DNA from: Bdellovibrio sp. GT3
GTDB taxonomy: Bacteria; Bdellovibrionota; Bdellovibrionia; Bdellovibrionales; Bdellovibrionaceae
Direction: 5' to 3'
NCBI RefSeq assembly: GCF_037996765.1
Contig: NZ_JBBNAD010000001.1
Location: forward strand, 124,001 to 188,000
DNA length: 64,000 bases
The notes under the pieces were generated by a model. The model had not been told where the DNA came from and did not search any database. It saw only the letters and a list, made by a program, of their open reading frames with translations. Shown here piece by piece: positions 20,433 to 26,067 of this stretch. Within the stretch, counting starts at the first letter, position 1, and every line of letters begins with the position of its first letter. A program made the position numbers and the translations under genes.

Positions 20433-23033
20433 ATGAAAAAAATCTACCTTATTGATGTCAGCTCGATGTTCTTTCGCGCCTTCTTCGCGATCCGACAACT
20501 GACATCCCCTAAGGGCATGCCCGTTAATGCCATCTACGGTTTCATCTCCATGATCACGAAACTCATGAAAGAGGAAAAACCAGAATACATGGTTTTCTGC
20601 TACGACCGTAAAGAGCCTTCATTCAGACACGAAATGTACGATGACTACAAAGCTCACCGTACCGAAATGCCTGAAGACCTGGCTGTGCAGATTCCTTATA
20701 TCAAACAATTGGCCGATATCATGGGTATCCCGGCTTTGGAAATTCCAAGCTACGAAGCCGATGACATCATTGGAACATTGACCAAGGTTGGAAAAAAGAA
20801 CGGCGTCGAAGTCGTGATTGTCAGCGGAGATAAAGACTTCGGTCAGTTGATCGAAGATGGCGTGATCCTTTACGACACGATGAAAGATCATCGCTATACC
20901 TCTCAAGGTGTTTTCGAAAAATGGGGCGTGCGCCCAGATCAGTTCATCGACTACTTGGCGATCGTGGGTGATACCTCGGATAACATCCCAGGCGTTAAGG
21001 GCGTTGGTGAAAAGGGTGCAATTAAGCTTCTTGAGCAATTCAAGCACCTTGAAGACATCTACGAAAACATCGACAAAGTTGAAAGCAAAAGCGTTCGTCA
21101 AAAATTGATCGATGCCAAAGACATGGCTCTTTTGTCTAAAAAACTGGTGACCATCGCGACAGAAATTCCAGTGGATCACGATATTGAATCTTATCGCTTG
21201 AAGCCGCGTAAAGATGAAGAACTGCGCGCGTATCTGCGCGAATTCAATTTCAAAACTTTCGAAAAAAACCTGTTCGGAGATTCTTCGGCGGCACCGGCAC
21301 CGGCAGCTGCAGCGCCCATGACTTCGACAGAGGTGGGTAAGGCCTATTACTCGGCTGCAGCCAAACCGGCAGCGGCTCCCGATGCTTTGGCAACTCCAAT
21401 GCTTGCGGATCATCAAACCAAAGAATTCACTGAAAAGACGTTATCCACAAAAGAACTCGCAGGAATGTTTGCTGAAGGACAGCCACTATGGGGTTTTCAC
21501 GATGCCCGCGGTGTCTTCATCGGGACTGATAACGATATCATCGCTGTTTCTGATTCCGAATTCCTGGGCAAATTGACCGATACCTTCAAAGTTCAATGGA
21601 AGGGCTACGATCTTAAGGATTTGTGGCACAAAATTGGAGCTAAGAATCCAAGTGCCGAATGGGATTCGATGTTGGCAGCTTATGTTTTGAAGGCTGCGGA
21701 CTCGTCTGATTTTTCCAAGATCTATGAAAAACACATGGGCGAGGCGTTGCCAGAGATGGCGTCACCTTCACAGCTATACAATGCACAACTGCACCTTGCA
21801 AAAACCTTGGATAAGAAGCTTCACGAACTTCACGGTGAAAAAGTTTACCGCGAGCTGGAACTTCCGTTGGTGAAAGTGCTTTTATCCATGGAAAATCTGG
21901 GGATCCGTATCGATACGGATTTGCTCCACAACCTTAGTAAAGAACTTGAGGGCGAAATCGCCGTACTGGAAAAACAAATTCACGAACTGGCGGGAGAGAA
22001 CTTCAACGTCGGAAGTCCCAAACAACTGGGCGTGATTCTGTTTGAAAAGTTAGGTCTGCCTGCAGGTAAGAAAACCAAAACTGGATACTCGACAGGGGAG
22101 GACGTACTCGAAGCCCTTGATCATCCTATCGCAAAACTGGTTTTGCAATGGCGTGAGCTTTCAAAACTAAAATCCACCTATGTGGATGCATTGCCAGTCA
22201 TGGTTCAGGAAAAAGACGGACGAGTGCACACAAGTTTCAATCAGGCTTTGACGACTACGGGCCGCTTATCCAGTACATCTCCGAATTTGCAGAATATTCC
22301 GATCCGTACGCAGCGTGGTCAGTTGGTGCGTAAAGCCTTCATCGCAAATCCGCGCATGAAGCTTCTTTCGGTCGACTACTCACAAATTGAATTAAGAATT
22401 CTTGCGCACATCTCTGAAGATCCAAATCTATGTAAAGCCTTCGCTGAAGACCTGGACATCCATGCGGCGACTGCGGCAGAGATCTTTAATATTCCTTTAA
22501 CTGAAGTAAATGCAGAACATCGTCGCACAGCCAAGGCTGTAAACTTCGGTATCGCCTACGGGCAGGGTGCATTCGGTTTGGCTGAAACTTTGGGTATTTC
22601 CCGTACAGAAGGAAAAGACATCATTGATCGCTATTTCACGCGCTTTAAAAACGTGCGCGATTATATCGAGGGCACGGTTAAGATCGCTCACGAAAAAGGT
22701 TACGTGGAAACACTGTTTGGTCGTCGTCGCTATATCGATGAACTTCAATCCAGCAACGCCATGCTAAAAAAATTCGGCGAGCGCGCTGCCATCAATGCCC
22801 CGATTCAGGGAACAGCCAGTGACTTGGTTAAAAAAGCCATGATCGAAGTCCACAAGACGGTGCCAGTGCGCATGCTATTGCAAGTGCATGACGAATTGAT
22901 CTTCGAAGATTTCGCAGACAATTTGGAGAAAATCACTCCGCAGTTGGTAAGCATCATGGAAAACGTGGCGACACTGCGTGTGCCTCTAAAGGTAAATTAC
23001 TCCATCGGCAATAACTGGGACGAAGCCCACTGA
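20433..23033 (+). CDS. polA: DNA polymerase I
   Basis: 866 residues. The N-terminal 5'-3' exonuclease domain is intact (LIDVSSMFFRAFFA, YEADDIIGTL, VSGDKDFGQL, GDTSDNIPGVKGVGEKGA). An Ala/Pro-rich linker follows (about 285-325). The 3'-5' exonuclease-like domain lacks the usual first motif with paired acidic residues: its region reads LWGFHDARG, so proofreading is probably lost. The polymerase domain is complete (SVDYSQIELRILAHIS, RRTAKAVNFGIAYGQG, LLQVHDELIFE). It functions in Okazaki-fragment processing and repair. The gene is followed by an intergenic palindrome shared with the convergent ABC gene. Confidence 0.97.
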   Translation: MKKIYLIDVSSMFFRAFFAIRQLTSPKGMPVNAIYGFISMITKLMKEEKPEYMVFCYDRKEPSFRHEMYDDYKAHRTEMPEDLAVQIPYIKQLADIMGIPALEIPSYEADDIIGTLTKVGKKNGVEVVIVSGDKDFGQLIEDGVILYDTMKDHRYTSQGVFEKWGVRPDQFIDYLAIVGDTSDNIPGVKGVGEKGAIKLLEQFKHLEDIYENIDKVESKSVRQKLIDAKDMALLSKKLVTIATEIPVDHDIESYRLKPRKDEELRAYLREFNFKTFEKNLFGDSSAAPAPAAAAPMTSTEVGKAYYSAAAKPAAAPDALATPMLADHQTKEFTEKTLSTKELAGMFAEGQPLWGFHDARGVFIGTDNDIIAVSDSEFLGKLTDTFKVQWKGYDLKDLWHKIGAKNPSAEWDSMLAAYVLKAADSSDFSKIYEKHMGEALPEMASPSQLYNAQLHLAKTLDKKLHELHGEKVYRELELPLVKVLLSMENLGIRIDTDLLHNLSKELEGEIAVLEKQIHELAGENFNVGSPKQLGVILFEKLGLPAGKKTKTGYSTGEDVLEALDHPIAKLVLQWRELSKLKSTYVDALPVMVQEKDGRVHTSFNQALTTTGRLSSTSPNLQNIPIRTQRGQLVRKAFIANPRMKLLSVDYSQIELRILAHISEDPNLCKAFAEDLDIHAATAAEIFNIPLTEVNAEHRRTAKAVNFGIAYGQGAFGLAETLGISRTEGKDIIDRYFTRFKNVRDYIEGTVKIAHEKGYVETLFGRRRYIDELQSSNAMLKKFGERAAINAPIQGTASDLVKKAMIEVHKTVPVRMLLQVHDELIFEDFADNLEKITPQLVSIMENVATLRVPLKVNYSIGNNWDEAH

Positions 23034-23036
23034 CCC

Positions 23037-23160
23037 GTGCGGATGAAAAAGGGCAAACTGCTTCGTTGTCGGTTGGCGCCTTGCTCTTCGGCGTACTTGG
23101 AGTACGCCTGCGTGGCAGTCGCCGCCCTCCGCCTCGCATTTGACCCTTTTTGATCCGCAC
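23037..23160. repeat. REP-like palindromic element between convergent genes
   Basis: Two imperfect 21-22 base arms (23037-23057 and 23139-23160, sharing GTGCGGAT and AAAAAGGG) flank about 80 bases. The centre holds a perfect hairpin GGCGTACT-TGG-AGTACGCC (23090-23108). The whole could fold into one long structure and terminate transcription from both sides. I saw no second copy in this window. Confidence 0.6.
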
Positions 23161-23182
23161 TGGCGTTCGCGGTGCGGAGGAT

Positions 23183-23203
23183 GGGGATGGGGACGGGTTG
23201 GGG
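23183..23203 (+). other. G-quadruplex motif
   Basis: Four G-runs (23183-23186, 23189-23192, 23195-23197, 23200-23203) are separated by two-base loops, a canonical quadruplex pattern on the plus strand. It sits in the convergent gap beyond polA and 15 bases from the stop codon of the ABC gene. Confidence 0.6.
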
Positions 23204-23217
23204 CGAGCTGTGCTGGG

Positions 23218-24552
23218 TTAGCGGTGGCGGACTTCTACTACTACTTTTTCTTTGGCGATCTCGTTGATGAGTGTGTTGATCTTTTCGATATTTTCTTCGT
23301 CTAGGTTTGCGTCCCATTCATCTAGCAGAATTATCTTCTCGTTCATTTGAGCGATGTGCTTCAAGTGCTGTAGGATGTTTTGTCCTGTGGAGCCCACTTT
23401 TAGATTTGGAATATCGAATTGTGGATTGGCTGGCAGGTAGATGCTTTCTTCGACTTGCTCGTTGAGCATTAGAAGTAGAGTTGATTTGCCGCTGCCGTTG
23501 TTGCCACGCACTTCAAGTCTGCGGGGAGTTGCGTTTTCAATCTGTTCTTTGATTTCATTTGTTGTTTGGTAGTTCTTGTTCTCTACCTGAATCTGGTTTG
23601 CTTTAATTCGGTTGCAATAGCCAAGTTCAGACAATTTTGTACCTTCTGCCAGTATCTTGAATTTTGATTCAAAGCTGATCAAAGAGGCTACAGCTGTAAA
23701 AATACTTCTGAATGTTCCAAGCATGGTTAGTTGGCGGGGAATAGTTGCCAGCAAAGCAATCAGTACAGGGGCATTCCCTTGATTCTTGAATAATGTAAAC
23801 ACGATAAGTGACATCACCGGAAGGCAAGATACCAAAGTAAGAATCACAACCAATCCTTCGTACCATCGTACTGATGTTTTGGACTTCTCCAGTGAGTTCT
23901 TCAGCAGAGTATGCAGACGGCTTTTGTAGGTATTGATCTGTGGCGAATTCTTAAAGAAGATGTTTTCCCAAGAGGTTAGTAAATAGCTATTCAGGGACAG
24001 TTTTGCATTCTGCTCTTCTTCGAATGCAGTTGTGGCGCGTTTTTGCAAAGCTCTGAATGCGAAAAAGCTGATAGCACCGGATACTATGAACGCTGGGATA
24101 AATTGGGGATCTAAAACATAACCGATTACAAGGGCACTTAGAATAATAGACAAGGCATAGGAAAAAACATCGATGTAGACAAGCAGAATTGCCGCTAGAT
24201 ACATCTCTACTTCCGCGCCGATGGAAATCAGGAATGATTCCTTTTTGTCTTTTTGTTGCCAGAAGCTTGGCGATCCCGCTTTGGACAAAAGGTGCTCGTT
24301 CAGGTATTGGCGGTAAGCAGCAACCGTTAAGGTCGTGTCGAGTGGTCTGACGAAGTAGCCCATGGCTGGTGCTATCAGGTGAGTCAGCATTGCAAGTACG
24401 GCCCAGAAGGCGAATTGAACGATGTTTTCAATATTGAAGCCGGCTTTTGCCAAAGCAAATGTACCTACAGCAGTAATGAATTGTTGAATCAAAATAAGAG
24501 CAGCGATTTTTAACGCAAGTTTTTTATCGATGTAAGAGAGTGTTGTTTTCAT
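23218..24552 (-). CDS. Compact peptide-type ABC transporter (membrane and ATPase in one chain)
   Basis: 444 residues from ATG 24552 (AGGAAAG upstream); the frame continues upstream but overlaps the oxygenase gene. About six membrane helices fill residues 1-300. The ATPase part is very short: Walker A GNNGSGKST at about 349, a Gln in ANPQFD, a signature-like GSTGQ near 384, Walker B IILLDEWDANLD near 405, and the switch His in EVRHR at the C-terminus. DEW after Walker B is also seen in PvdE/YojI-type exporters of cyclic or modified peptides. The whole ATPase domain is only about 120 residues, roughly half of normal. It lies downstream of the oxygenase and small-peptide genes, so export of a modified peptide is the natural inference. 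Confidence 0.82.
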   Translation of the reverse strand: MKTTLSYIDKKLALKIAALILIQQFITAVGTFALAKAGFNIENIVQFAFWAVLAMLTHLIAPAMGYFVRPLDTTLTVAAYRQYLNEHLLSKAGSPSFWQQKDKKESFLISIGAEVEMYLAAILLVYIDVFSYALSIILSALVIGYVLDPQFIPAFIVSGAISFFAFRALQKRATTAFEEEQNAKLSLNSYLLTSWENIFFKNSPQINTYKSRLHTLLKNSLEKSKTSVRWYEGLVVILTLVSCLPVMSLIVFTLFKNQGNAPVLIALLATIPRQLTMLGTFRSIFTAVASLISFESKFKILAEGTKLSELGYCNRIKANQIQVENKNYQTTNEIKEQIENATPRRLEVRGNNGSGKSTLLLMLNEQVEESIYLPANPQFDIPNLKVGSTGQNILQHLKHIAQMNEKIILLDEWDANLDEENIEKINTLINEIAKEKVVVEVRHR

Positions 24553-24554
24553 AA

Positions 24555-25136
24555 TTATCTTTCCTGAACAATCCACTCTGACATTACAGAGTACCTGGTC
24601 CAATTTTTCACTTTGTTAACGGAGTGCCAGTTGGTTTCATCCGAAAAGAACAGAATCATTCTATTTGGAATTGGCTCAATGATATGGGCTTCTTCTGAGC
24701 TTGATTTTTCATTTTCGTGGAGTAAAAGTTCTCCGCCGTTTTCCTTCTTCCAGTTCGGGGAAAGGTAAAGAATGCAGACCAACGATCGATACTCCACAGT
24801 GTCTGTATGTATCGGCATCGATGGACTGGAGTCATTCATGTAGCGTAGTTGAACCAGACTCTTTTGATTAATCTCAAGTTCCGCGTCAGCGGCGCTTTCC
24901 AAAAAAAGTTTGAAGTCTTCGCTTAGGAAAATTCGTGCCAGATCCAAATCGGGAGTGAACTTAAAATTCACCTCCCATAGATCATCCGGAAGTCGTTGAA
25001 AGCCTTCTTTGGAGTTACACATCGTTTGTTGGAACTTCTCCAGAGCGTCGAGAGGCAGAAAATTATCCACCAGGTAGTACGGCCATGGTTGACTGAATTT
25101 CAAAGCTTGTTTGTATCGAATTAATGTCGTTTCCAT
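24555..25136 (-). CDS. 2-oxoglutarate/Fe(II)-dependent oxygenase (prolyl-hydroxylase-like)
   Basis: 193 residues. The double-stranded beta-helix iron site is complete: His110 and Asp112 in PIHTDT, His171 in NWHSV, and the 2-oxoglutarate-binding Arg181 in WTRYSV. Strands such as VCILYLSP and NGGELLLHE are typical of the prolyl-4-hydroxylase-like (2OG-FeII_Oxy_3) group, which hydroxylates Pro, Asp or other side chains in peptides and proteins. It is cytoplasmic, with no signal. The stop codon is followed after two bases by the ABC transporter start, and the 49-residue peptide gene ends 21 bases upstream. The arrangement suggests the peptide is its substrate; this is inference. Confidence 0.88.
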   Translation of the reverse strand: METTLIRYKQALKFSQPWPYYLVDNFLPLDALEKFQQTMCNSKEGFQRLPDDLWEVNFKFTPDLDLARIFLSEDFKLFLESAADAELEINQKSLVQLRYMNDSSPSMPIHTDTVEYRSLVCILYLSPNWKKENGGELLLHENEKSSSEEAHIIEPIPNRMILFFSDETNWHSVNKVKNWTRYSVMSEWIVQER

Positions 25137-25157
25137 GGTCGTTCTACCTGTTTGAAG

Positions 25158-25307
25158 TTACTTTCCTGAGTTTGATGTGCTTTTTGTCTTCAGAAGGTCT
25201 TTGATTTCTTGAGGGATGCAGTTGTCATCGAGTTCGCGTTGAACACCATGGGCAAAAGCGCCTCTGCGGGAATAACTGATTGATTGGAAAATTTCGAATT
25301 TGTTCAT
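25158..25307 (-). CDS. 49-residue peptide, candidate precursor of a modified peptide
   Basis: A small open frame read directly from the minus strand: ATG at 25307, TAA at 25160-25158. The product begins MNKFEIFQSISYSRR, continues GAFAHGVQRELDDNCIPQE, and ends IKDLLKTKSTSNSGK. AAGGAGAT lies five bases upstream of the ATG, an excellent ribosome binding site. It has one Cys and one Pro in the DDNCIP motif and a Ser/Thr/Lys-rich tail. The first half looks leader-like (amphipathic, charged). It is followed in the same direction by a 2OG/Fe(II) oxygenase and a peptide-type ABC transporter. A RiPP precursor is my inference; a small regulatory protein remains possible. Confidence 0.7.
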   Translation of the reverse strand: MNKFEIFQSISYSRRGAFAHGVQRELDDNCIPQEIKDLLKTKSTSNSGK

Positions 25308-25310
25308 ATG

Positions 25311-25331
25311 GGATCTCCTTTGTGGAGATCC
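25311..25331 (-). promoter_or_regulatory. Hairpin enclosing the ribosome binding site of the small peptide gene
   Basis: GGATCTCC (25311-25318 on plus) and GGAGATCC (25324-25331) form a perfect 8-bp stem with a five-base loop. On the minus strand the second arm contains GGAGAT, the ribosome binding site for the ATG at 25307. The arrangement suggests translation is switched by unfolding. Confidence 0.55.
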
Positions 25332-25373
25332 GTAATTGCAGGTCCGATGCCACGGATTTCGGGCATCAGATCA

Positions 25374-25402
25374 AATATAGGCGTGCTGAGGAGCTGCGGT
25401 AA
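25374..25402 (-). promoter_or_regulatory. Candidate promoter of the peptide/oxygenase/transporter operon
   Basis: On the minus strand TTACCG (25402-25397) and TATATT (25379-25374) are 17 bases apart; the -10 matches five of six consensus bases and the -35 three. It lies about 70 bases before the peptide ATG. Confidence 0.4.
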
Positions 25403-25440
25403 TTAAAATCAGGATTTTGTCTTAGAATTAGGAACCGGCG

Positions 25441-26067
25441 CTATTGAGTTTCCCAACCCACCACGCGGCCGCCTTCGAAGTAGACGAAGCGGACTTCCTT
25501 GCGGTAGCCCGAAGAGGTGGATGTCTGGCGTTCATAGCGCCAGCGTTCGTTTCTGTATAGTGGATTGCCGGATACATCAATGCCGACGGGCTCGCCCCAG
25601 GATTTTTTAACGTATTCCTGTGGCATGCCAATCGCGATGTCCTGGGTATCAACTAAGCCCTTCATTTCGGCCTTTGGAGCGGTCGAACGGCTCCAGATTT
25701 TATTCTTATTGATCCAAGCCTGGCGGCCTTCGATGGAAGGAATGGACAGGAATTCCATTTTTTCGGCATCGGATTCAAGCCAAGGCAGGATCCGGGAATA
25801 CTGTTCTTTCTCTTTGTTGGAGTGAAGCTTGCGCTCCATTTGGCGGACTGTTGTGCGATCTTGGATGTCCTGAATGTCACTGGCATTCAAGTTCCCTGGA
25901 TCCTTGCCTAATTCATAAGCTGTTTGGCGGGCTGAACGATCGCGCATGATGTCCCGGGAATCCTGGGTATAGTCCGAGGAACCATAGCCACTGGAGGCGG
26001 ATCTTTGCAAATTTGTACAAGCTGACAATGAAAGGCCCAAAACTGACACTGCAAACAATACTTTCAT
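25441..26067 (-). CDS. Lipoprotein of unknown function
   Basis: 208 residues with a lipoprotein signal (MKVLFAVSVLGLSLSAC, lipobox LSAC) and TAGGAG before the ATG. The mature N-terminus is Ser/Gly/Tyr-rich (SSGYGSSDYTQD). The C-terminal part (about 135-208) has IAIGMPQEYVKKSWGEPVGIDVSG, a SmpA/BamE-like pattern (glycine-methionine start, a conserved WGEP), and ends in WRYE..VRFVYFEGGRVVGWE. A BamE-like fold in the envelope is a moderate-confidence call. It is transcribed toward the peptide operon and has its own promoter region. Confidence 0.75.
   Translation of the reverse strand: MKVLFAVSVLGLSLSACTNLQRSASSGYGSSDYTQDSRDIMRDRSARQTAYELGKDPGNLNASDIQDIQDRTTVRQMERKLHSNKEKEQYSRILPWLESDAEKMEFLSIPSIEGRQAWINKNKIWSRSTAPKAEMKGLVDTQDIAIGMPQEYVKKSWGEPVGIDVSGNPLYRNERWRYERQTSTSSGYRKEVRFVYFEGGRVVGWETQ

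Follow-up and report, generated by a model that had tools for sequence, protein, structure and literature searches.

The 64,000-nucleotide window of Bdellovibrio sp. GT3 analyzed here (positions 124001-188000 of the contig in its own assembly) contains a cassette of three minus-strand genes, encoding a small peptide, a 2-oxoglutarate (2OG)/Fe(II) oxygenase, and an ABC half-transporter, separated by 21 and 2 bases; the single strand, the spacing, the completeness of the oxygenase, and all coordinates agree with the original prediction (Table 1). This is likely to be a RiPP-type cassette, in which the peptide is oxidized by the adjacent oxygenase and exported by the half-transporter. That reading, already made in the original prediction, is supported by the conservation of the trio, its movement as a unit, and the association of the transporter family with peptide-modifying enzymes, but the peptide core proposed with it is not supported, as described below. 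The RiPP features that can be read from sequence appear to be present, namely a conserved small precursor gene next to the enzyme (eight loci), an enzyme of a RiPP-type class, and an exporter of a dedicated type.

Table 1. Coordinates of the cassette and associated features in the window
Feature	Position	Strand	Details
Candidate precursor peptide gene	25158-25307	-	49 aa
2-Oxoglutarate/Fe(II) oxygenase, complete	24555-25136	-	193 aa; PF13640 at 2.3e-15
ABC half-transporter	23218-24552	-	444 aa
Hairpin with Shine-Dalgarno sequence of the peptide gene	25311-25331	-	8-bp perfect stem, 5-base loop
Inserted unit	23034-25440	n/a	segment missing at the equivalent polA/lipoprotein gene site of G014

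The peptide gene and its relatives

Frames of the size of the peptide gene are common (96 frames of at least 40 residues overlap 13 kb), so that a 49-codon frame is by itself no proof of a gene and the case for it must be comparative. The oxygenase was searched for in 140 genomes of the order, 14 neighborhoods were retrieved, and the peptide was compared by blastp with all ORFs of at least 25 residues in the window and 17 loci (L032-L048). Seven further frames were matched with E values from 9e-11 to 1e-3 (L039, 9e-11; L035, 2e-9; L037, 5e-6; L045, 1e-5; L038, 2e-5; L036, 3e-5; L040, 1e-3), and the next match was at 0.72. Six of the seven are directly upstream of an oxygenase-transporter pair, and the seventh (L045, in genome G025) is upstream of the transporter and an oxygenase remnant, whose last 28 residues are in one frame (68% identical) and follow a damaged stretch. 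Conservation of the small frame had been named beforehand as a point on which the prediction could fail, and the seven further copies in the genus bear it out. Shine-Dalgarno sequences stand before the starts of the peptide genes, variation by codon position is 0.45/0.36/0.60, being greatest at the third, and the closest pair (L036 and L037) differ by 6 synonymous changes versus 1 non-synonymous. In each of seven copies tested, the peptide frame is uninterrupted, and stops occur in both remaining forward frames with a single exception. As judged from these comparisons, the peptide gene is real and under purifying selection, and conservation and selection together indicate that the peptide is translated.

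In the window, the ribosome-binding site of the peptide gene is enclosed by a hairpin (z −2.56; 4 of 200 shuffles fold as well or better) that, by eye, is absent from the other cassette loci. Since it hides the ribosome-binding site and is absent elsewhere, it perhaps represents local regulation of the translation of the peptide. Scans for promoters and terminators gave results no better than chance.

Alignment of the eight in-genus peptides shows that Met1, Gly21, Leu26, Ile31, and Pro32 are invariant and that Glu34 and the hydrophobic pair following it are common, while the basic tail is variable; in the window peptide, Gly21, Leu26, and Ile31-Pro32 are succeeded by the hydrophobic/acidic stretch QEIKDLL and then by the variable basic tail. 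Conserved residues thus occur in both the N-terminal and C-terminal halves. The DDNCIP sequence that had been put forward as a core is not retained as such, because the DD pair, Asn, and Cys are not conserved across the eight peptides and just Ile-Pro is kept.

Small peptides of 35-53 residues also adjoin four TP-methylases (in G039, G047, G030, and G327) and carry RRLLNxxP or PRCLxxLP with a similar end. A simple profile of the eight in-genus peptides misses the small peptides of G039, G047, and G030 among 6776 ORFs, but one profile-profile comparison of the two groups gives an hhalign probability of 64.6 (E 6.3e-5); since the groups are joined by this comparison alone, the link is regarded as suggestive, and a common origin as likely. 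The common motif, which was derived from the same peptides in which it was counted and is therefore descriptive and not a test, is found in 12 of 5214 ORFs, comprising 11 candidates and one chance match, and misses the in-genus peptide of L035. In a profile search of the order, 11 of 140 genomes were matched, including the profile's own 10 training rows, and the sole new row, a peptide match in G072 (0.004), was dropped as it lies inside a 334-residue frame. Comparison of the peptide profiles with the PDB gave nothing usable, and the precursor family is matched by no library searched. The proline equivalent to Pro32 is also present in G030 and G327, where no 2OG oxygenase is seen in the stretches read; its conservation is therefore no proof of hydroxylation and may serve something else.

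Distribution and mobility of the cassette

Of 24 genomes of the genus (that of GT3 and G004-G026), 8 carry the peptide gene next to the transporter gene, and a full oxygenase gene lies between the two in seven of these eight cassettes. In the window, the cassette is flanked by polA, which ends at 23033, and by a gene at 25441-26067 for a small lipoprotein-like protein that weakly matches BamE, while eno and ftsB are about 100 bases apart; in G014, the cassette is instead between eno and an ftsB-like gene, and polA and the lipoprotein gene are about 55 bases apart (the names polA, eno, and ftsB are those that we presume by eye from the translations). Still other flanks are found in G012 and in the trio G017, G019, and G020. 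The occupation of different chromosomal sites, together with the reciprocal empty sites, indicates that the cassette moves as a unit, which in the window comprises the three genes and flanks of 184 bases on the downstream side and 133 bases on the upstream side, and from these comparisons it appears to be a self-contained, horizontally moving unit. Because the three genes stay together while changing site, they are likely to be functional partners. A palindromic sequence, GCGTACT..AGTACG, is present just downstream of the transporter gene both in the window (23090-23108) and in G014, where it is between the transporter gene and eno (L038, 9559-9770) at an insertion site different from that of the window; this element might mark how the cassette moves.

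The oxygenase and the transporter

In the oxygenase, the residues of the HxD...H iron site, His110-x-Asp112 and His171, and the 2OG-binding Arg181 are invariant in 10 homologues. The solved folds nearest to its structural model (mean pLDDT 90.7, pTM 0.88) are those of PolD (Z 21.4), PasI (19.5), OGFOD1 (19.4; rmsd 2.7, 184 residues aligned), Tpa1 (18.5), and PHD2 (17-18), with a similar order in Foldseek, and OGFOD1, Tpa1, and PHD2 are the nearest by sequence profile, OGFOD1 being the best match (4nhx, E 1.2e-18). The modeled fold would place the enzyme in the prolyl-hydroxylase group, which is consistent with proline as its target without establishing it; PolD and PasI, which match the fold equally well, are a warning that other substrates occur with it. 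Compared with OGFOD1/Tpa1 and PHD2, it also differs in being a single 193-residue domain. Close homologues (E < 1e-40) are present in 7 of 140 genomes, every one in the same cassette, so that the possibility raised with the original prediction, that they might lie beside unrelated genes, is not borne out. Among weaker matches (E > 1e-9), no close relative of the window transporter is found near L043, L044, or L046-L048. Three Bacteroidota oxygenases from a scan of genome contigs, with no such transporter nearby, were set aside as distant general oxygenases, as were the weaker matches.

The best NCBIfam match of the oxygenase is NF041706 (E 3.1e-11), the family of YhhC, a cyclophane-peptide 2OG-Fe(II) oxygenase that likewise is a small PF13640-type enzyme and is named as a RiPP maturation enzyme; however, the score of 43.3 bits is below the family threshold, the curated cut-off being 150. 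The partner of YhhC is a radical SAM cyclophane maturase, as is also implied by the family name, whereas no radical SAM gene is recognized in the ORF list by the window oxygenase, where the flanks are polA and the lipoprotein gene. A second comparison is with CorC, described as a PF13640 2OG-Fe(II) oxygenase that hydroxylates Lys in corallotide, a ribosomal graspetide precursor (PMC13097080). Hydroxylation by CorC follows the formation of an isopeptide by a graspetide synthetase (PMC13097080), but the window cassette contains no such synthetase.

In the transporter, a helical membrane region is joined to an ATP-binding domain, as in peptide ABC exporters, with Walker A at residues 350-357, the signature STGQ at about 388-391, and the Walker B/D-loop LLDEWDANLD at 409-418; the DEW element that had been noted in it is at residues 411-413. 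Most of the invariant columns fall in the stretches GNNGSGKS, STGQ, LLDEW, and EVRH, the last including the H-loop, and the Pfam ABC_tran model scores 21.2 bits versus a cut-off of 25. DEW is present in 31 of the 31 transporters that reach that point, and DEWDANL in 27 of the 31, in a set of 32 rows of which four are plasmid relatives and one is incomplete. Because the protein starts with membrane helices, it has no N-terminal peptidase domain. The nucleotide-binding domain (residues 350-418) is compact by the yardstick of the usual length of canonical domains, as it is without most of the usual stretch between Walker A and the signature, and the same is true of ten aligned homologues. In Foldseek, the top match of the transporter model (pLDDT 86.2, pTM 0.76) is McjD, the microcin J25 exporter (4pl0, E 1.3e-8), but the identity is 12% and the TM-score 0.68, the nucleotide-binding domain of the window protein is much shorter, and other ABC exporters (MsbA, IrtAB, and PCAT1) are behind by small margins. 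In a maximum-likelihood tree, the window-type transporters form one clade with two solo copies, the second copy of G012 and the first of G116, alongside which neither peptide nor oxygenase was found; the sister of this clade is the transporter of G039 (97/94), a position that is unsure because G039 is a long branch.

The transporter family in the phylum and the proposed function

A profile of ten transporters, applied at an E value of 1e-40 or better to 368 genomes of the phylum, identified 28 loci in 25 genomes, the ten profile rows being included in the count. A gene for a recognized peptide-modifying enzyme adjoins the transporter gene at 21 of the 28 loci, a figure without a background rate from other transporters, and a candidate precursor is often present at the enzyme-bearing loci. 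The enzymes are the window-type oxygenase (seven loci), TP-methylases (four loci, those of G039, G047, G030, and G327), mod_HExxH proteins of TIGR04267 (eight loci: G137, G008, G088, G119, the second copy of G116, G063, G292, and G357; 41.9 to 65 bits versus a cut-off of 40), and radical SAM maturase-like proteins (two loci); of the latter, that of G128 matches the ryptide maturase model at 6e-68, with 229.7 bits versus a cut-off of 600, and that of G326 scores 101 bits. One further locus is that of G025 with its peptide, transporter, and oxygenase remnant, and no recognized enzyme is found at six (the second copies of G012 and G025, the first copy of G116, G060, G265, and G159, those of G265 and G159 standing at contig ends). 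More distant relatives of the transporter (25-30% identity) are encoded by plasmids of Acinetobacter, Moraxella, Methylophaga, and Psychrobacter. That of Acinetobacter adjoins an annotated "HEXXH motif-containing putative peptide modification protein," and those of Moraxella and Methylophaga adjoin a DUF6875 protein, but neither type of neighbor is annotated in Psychrobacter. The plasmid-borne DUF6875 and transporter genes (L108:4068-6281 and L106:4765-6956) have small frames upstream, of which the Methylophaga one ends in CGWGGGWSW, and DUF6875 may be a peptide-modifying family.

PosC and PflC exemplify the aKG-HExxH peptide hydroxylases (TIGR04267), a family that differs from that of the window oxygenase and has no member in the window cassette. 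Small frames stand directly upstream of the mod_HExxH and transporter genes (L074:10962-11093 (-), L076:5332-5511, L077:838-963, L079:5631-5753, L081:9986-10144 (-), L100:2228-2536, L101:9315-9455 (-), and L082:553-714). MIAFD occurs at or close to the end of five of the eight, and the remaining three have MIAFN, MAAFDR, and MLVLE; from these sequences, the frames look like precursors of one family that share a conserved core at the C terminus. A ryptide-like locus (L080:7544-10552) combines a candidate precursor ending in GGRRY with a radical SAM/SPASM protein and a transporter of the same family.

When the four TP-methylases are used as a profile, their best PDB matches are the borosin N-methyltransferases MroMA (1.6e-23), OphMA, and SonM. 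SonM and SonA belong to the type IV "split" borosins and SonA is described as having a 53-residue binding domain, made of five helices, that precedes the core (PMC8429565), whereas the candidate precursors at these loci are 35-53 residues in all. Relatives of the window transporter and, more weakly, of the peptide are thus found beside borosin-type N-methyltransferases, but the window cassette has no N-methyltransferase. These loci (L041:7111-11958, L042:4636-8513, L075:1923-4889, and L102:940-4051) combine the N-methyltransferases and very short separate precursors with further enzymes, being 2OG oxygenases and HExxH-bearing proteins in G039 and G047 and a small radical SAM protein in G030 and G327, combinations not seen in the papers examined. 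Two related proteins at L041:8704-9402 and L042:7731-8513 (E 4e-8) contain HEAGH/HELGH, have no Pfam or NCBIfam match, and are candidates for the missing leader peptidase or for a further oxidizing enzyme.

In the mechanism proposed for the window cassette, the 49-residue peptide would be translated and then oxidized, most likely by hydroxylation, by the adjacent oxygenase, and the product would be exported by the half-transporter, presumably as a homodimer. We think it fairly likely that the oxygenase does oxidize the peptide, and export by the transporter, to which family, fold, and neighborhood all point, likely. Because the ORF list contains no protease gene in the cassette, either the whole peptide would be exported or a protease encoded elsewhere would trim it. 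No boundary between leader and core is recognizable in the peptide. With respect to the site of hydroxylation, for which Pro32 and the DD pair had both been suggested, the DD pair is not supported, but Pro32 remains the best single guess, albeit a tentative one, given its invariance and the prolyl-hydroxylase fold of the enzyme.

A signal or an antimicrobial had been suggested as the role of the product, and the evidence favors neither. It is possible, although on balance rather doubtful, that the cassette is a bacteriocin-type unit, compatible with the RiPP-type reading, in which the modified peptide would act against competitors or prey and the transporter, besides exporting it, would shield the producing cell. 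The patchy and mobile distribution in the genus, the similarity of the transporter fold to an exporter of an antibacterial peptide, and the small plasmids that encode its distant relatives would be in keeping with this, but the middle part of the peptide is conserved and not fast-evolving, and signaling or metal binding would give the same picture. An improbable alternative to oxidation of the peptide is that it leaves the cell without modification, or assists the transporter, and that the oxygenase is a passenger with another target, for example a ribosomal protein or an elongation factor. The solved relatives include Tpa1, which modifies the ribosomal protein Rps23, and a prolyl hydroxylase bound to EF-Tu (4iw3), and G025 retains the peptide and transporter with the oxygenase reduced to a remnant; however, a full-length oxygenase stands between the two other genes in all in-genus cassettes but one and moves with them, and related transporters adjoin other peptide-modifying enzymes. 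Many frames of this size arise by chance, but it is very improbable that the small frame is one of them, situated in the leader of an operon of oxygenase and transporter, in view of its seven further conserved copies, the selection on them, and their ribosome-binding sites.

On the RiPP-type reading, the trio would be a locus with a single oxygenase, its own precursor family, and a compact exporter through which several further clusters for modified peptides can be found. No description of the peptide-oxygenase-transporter gene set was found in the literature searched, which covers few subscription papers. In earlier work, RiPP clusters are said in general terms to occur in Bdellovibrionota (PMC8067016), and clusters in Bdellovibrionota_B have been counted (PMC8692599); no described RiPP product from the phylum was found in the literature searched, in which the former is the one general mention of clusters. 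More speculatively, the "DEWDANL" half-transporters may mark an unrecognized RiPP layer in the phylum, one exporter family being repeatedly paired with unrelated oxidizing, methylating, and radical enzymes; the window cassette would be its leanest form, portable and with a single enzyme, and its precursor family would serve N-methylation in other genera. The cassette is a small, cloneable system in which to ask whether an enzyme of the prolyl-hydroxylase type can be the sole maturase of a secreted bacterial peptide, and the compact transporter provides a search handle for easily missed precursor peptides in the phylum.
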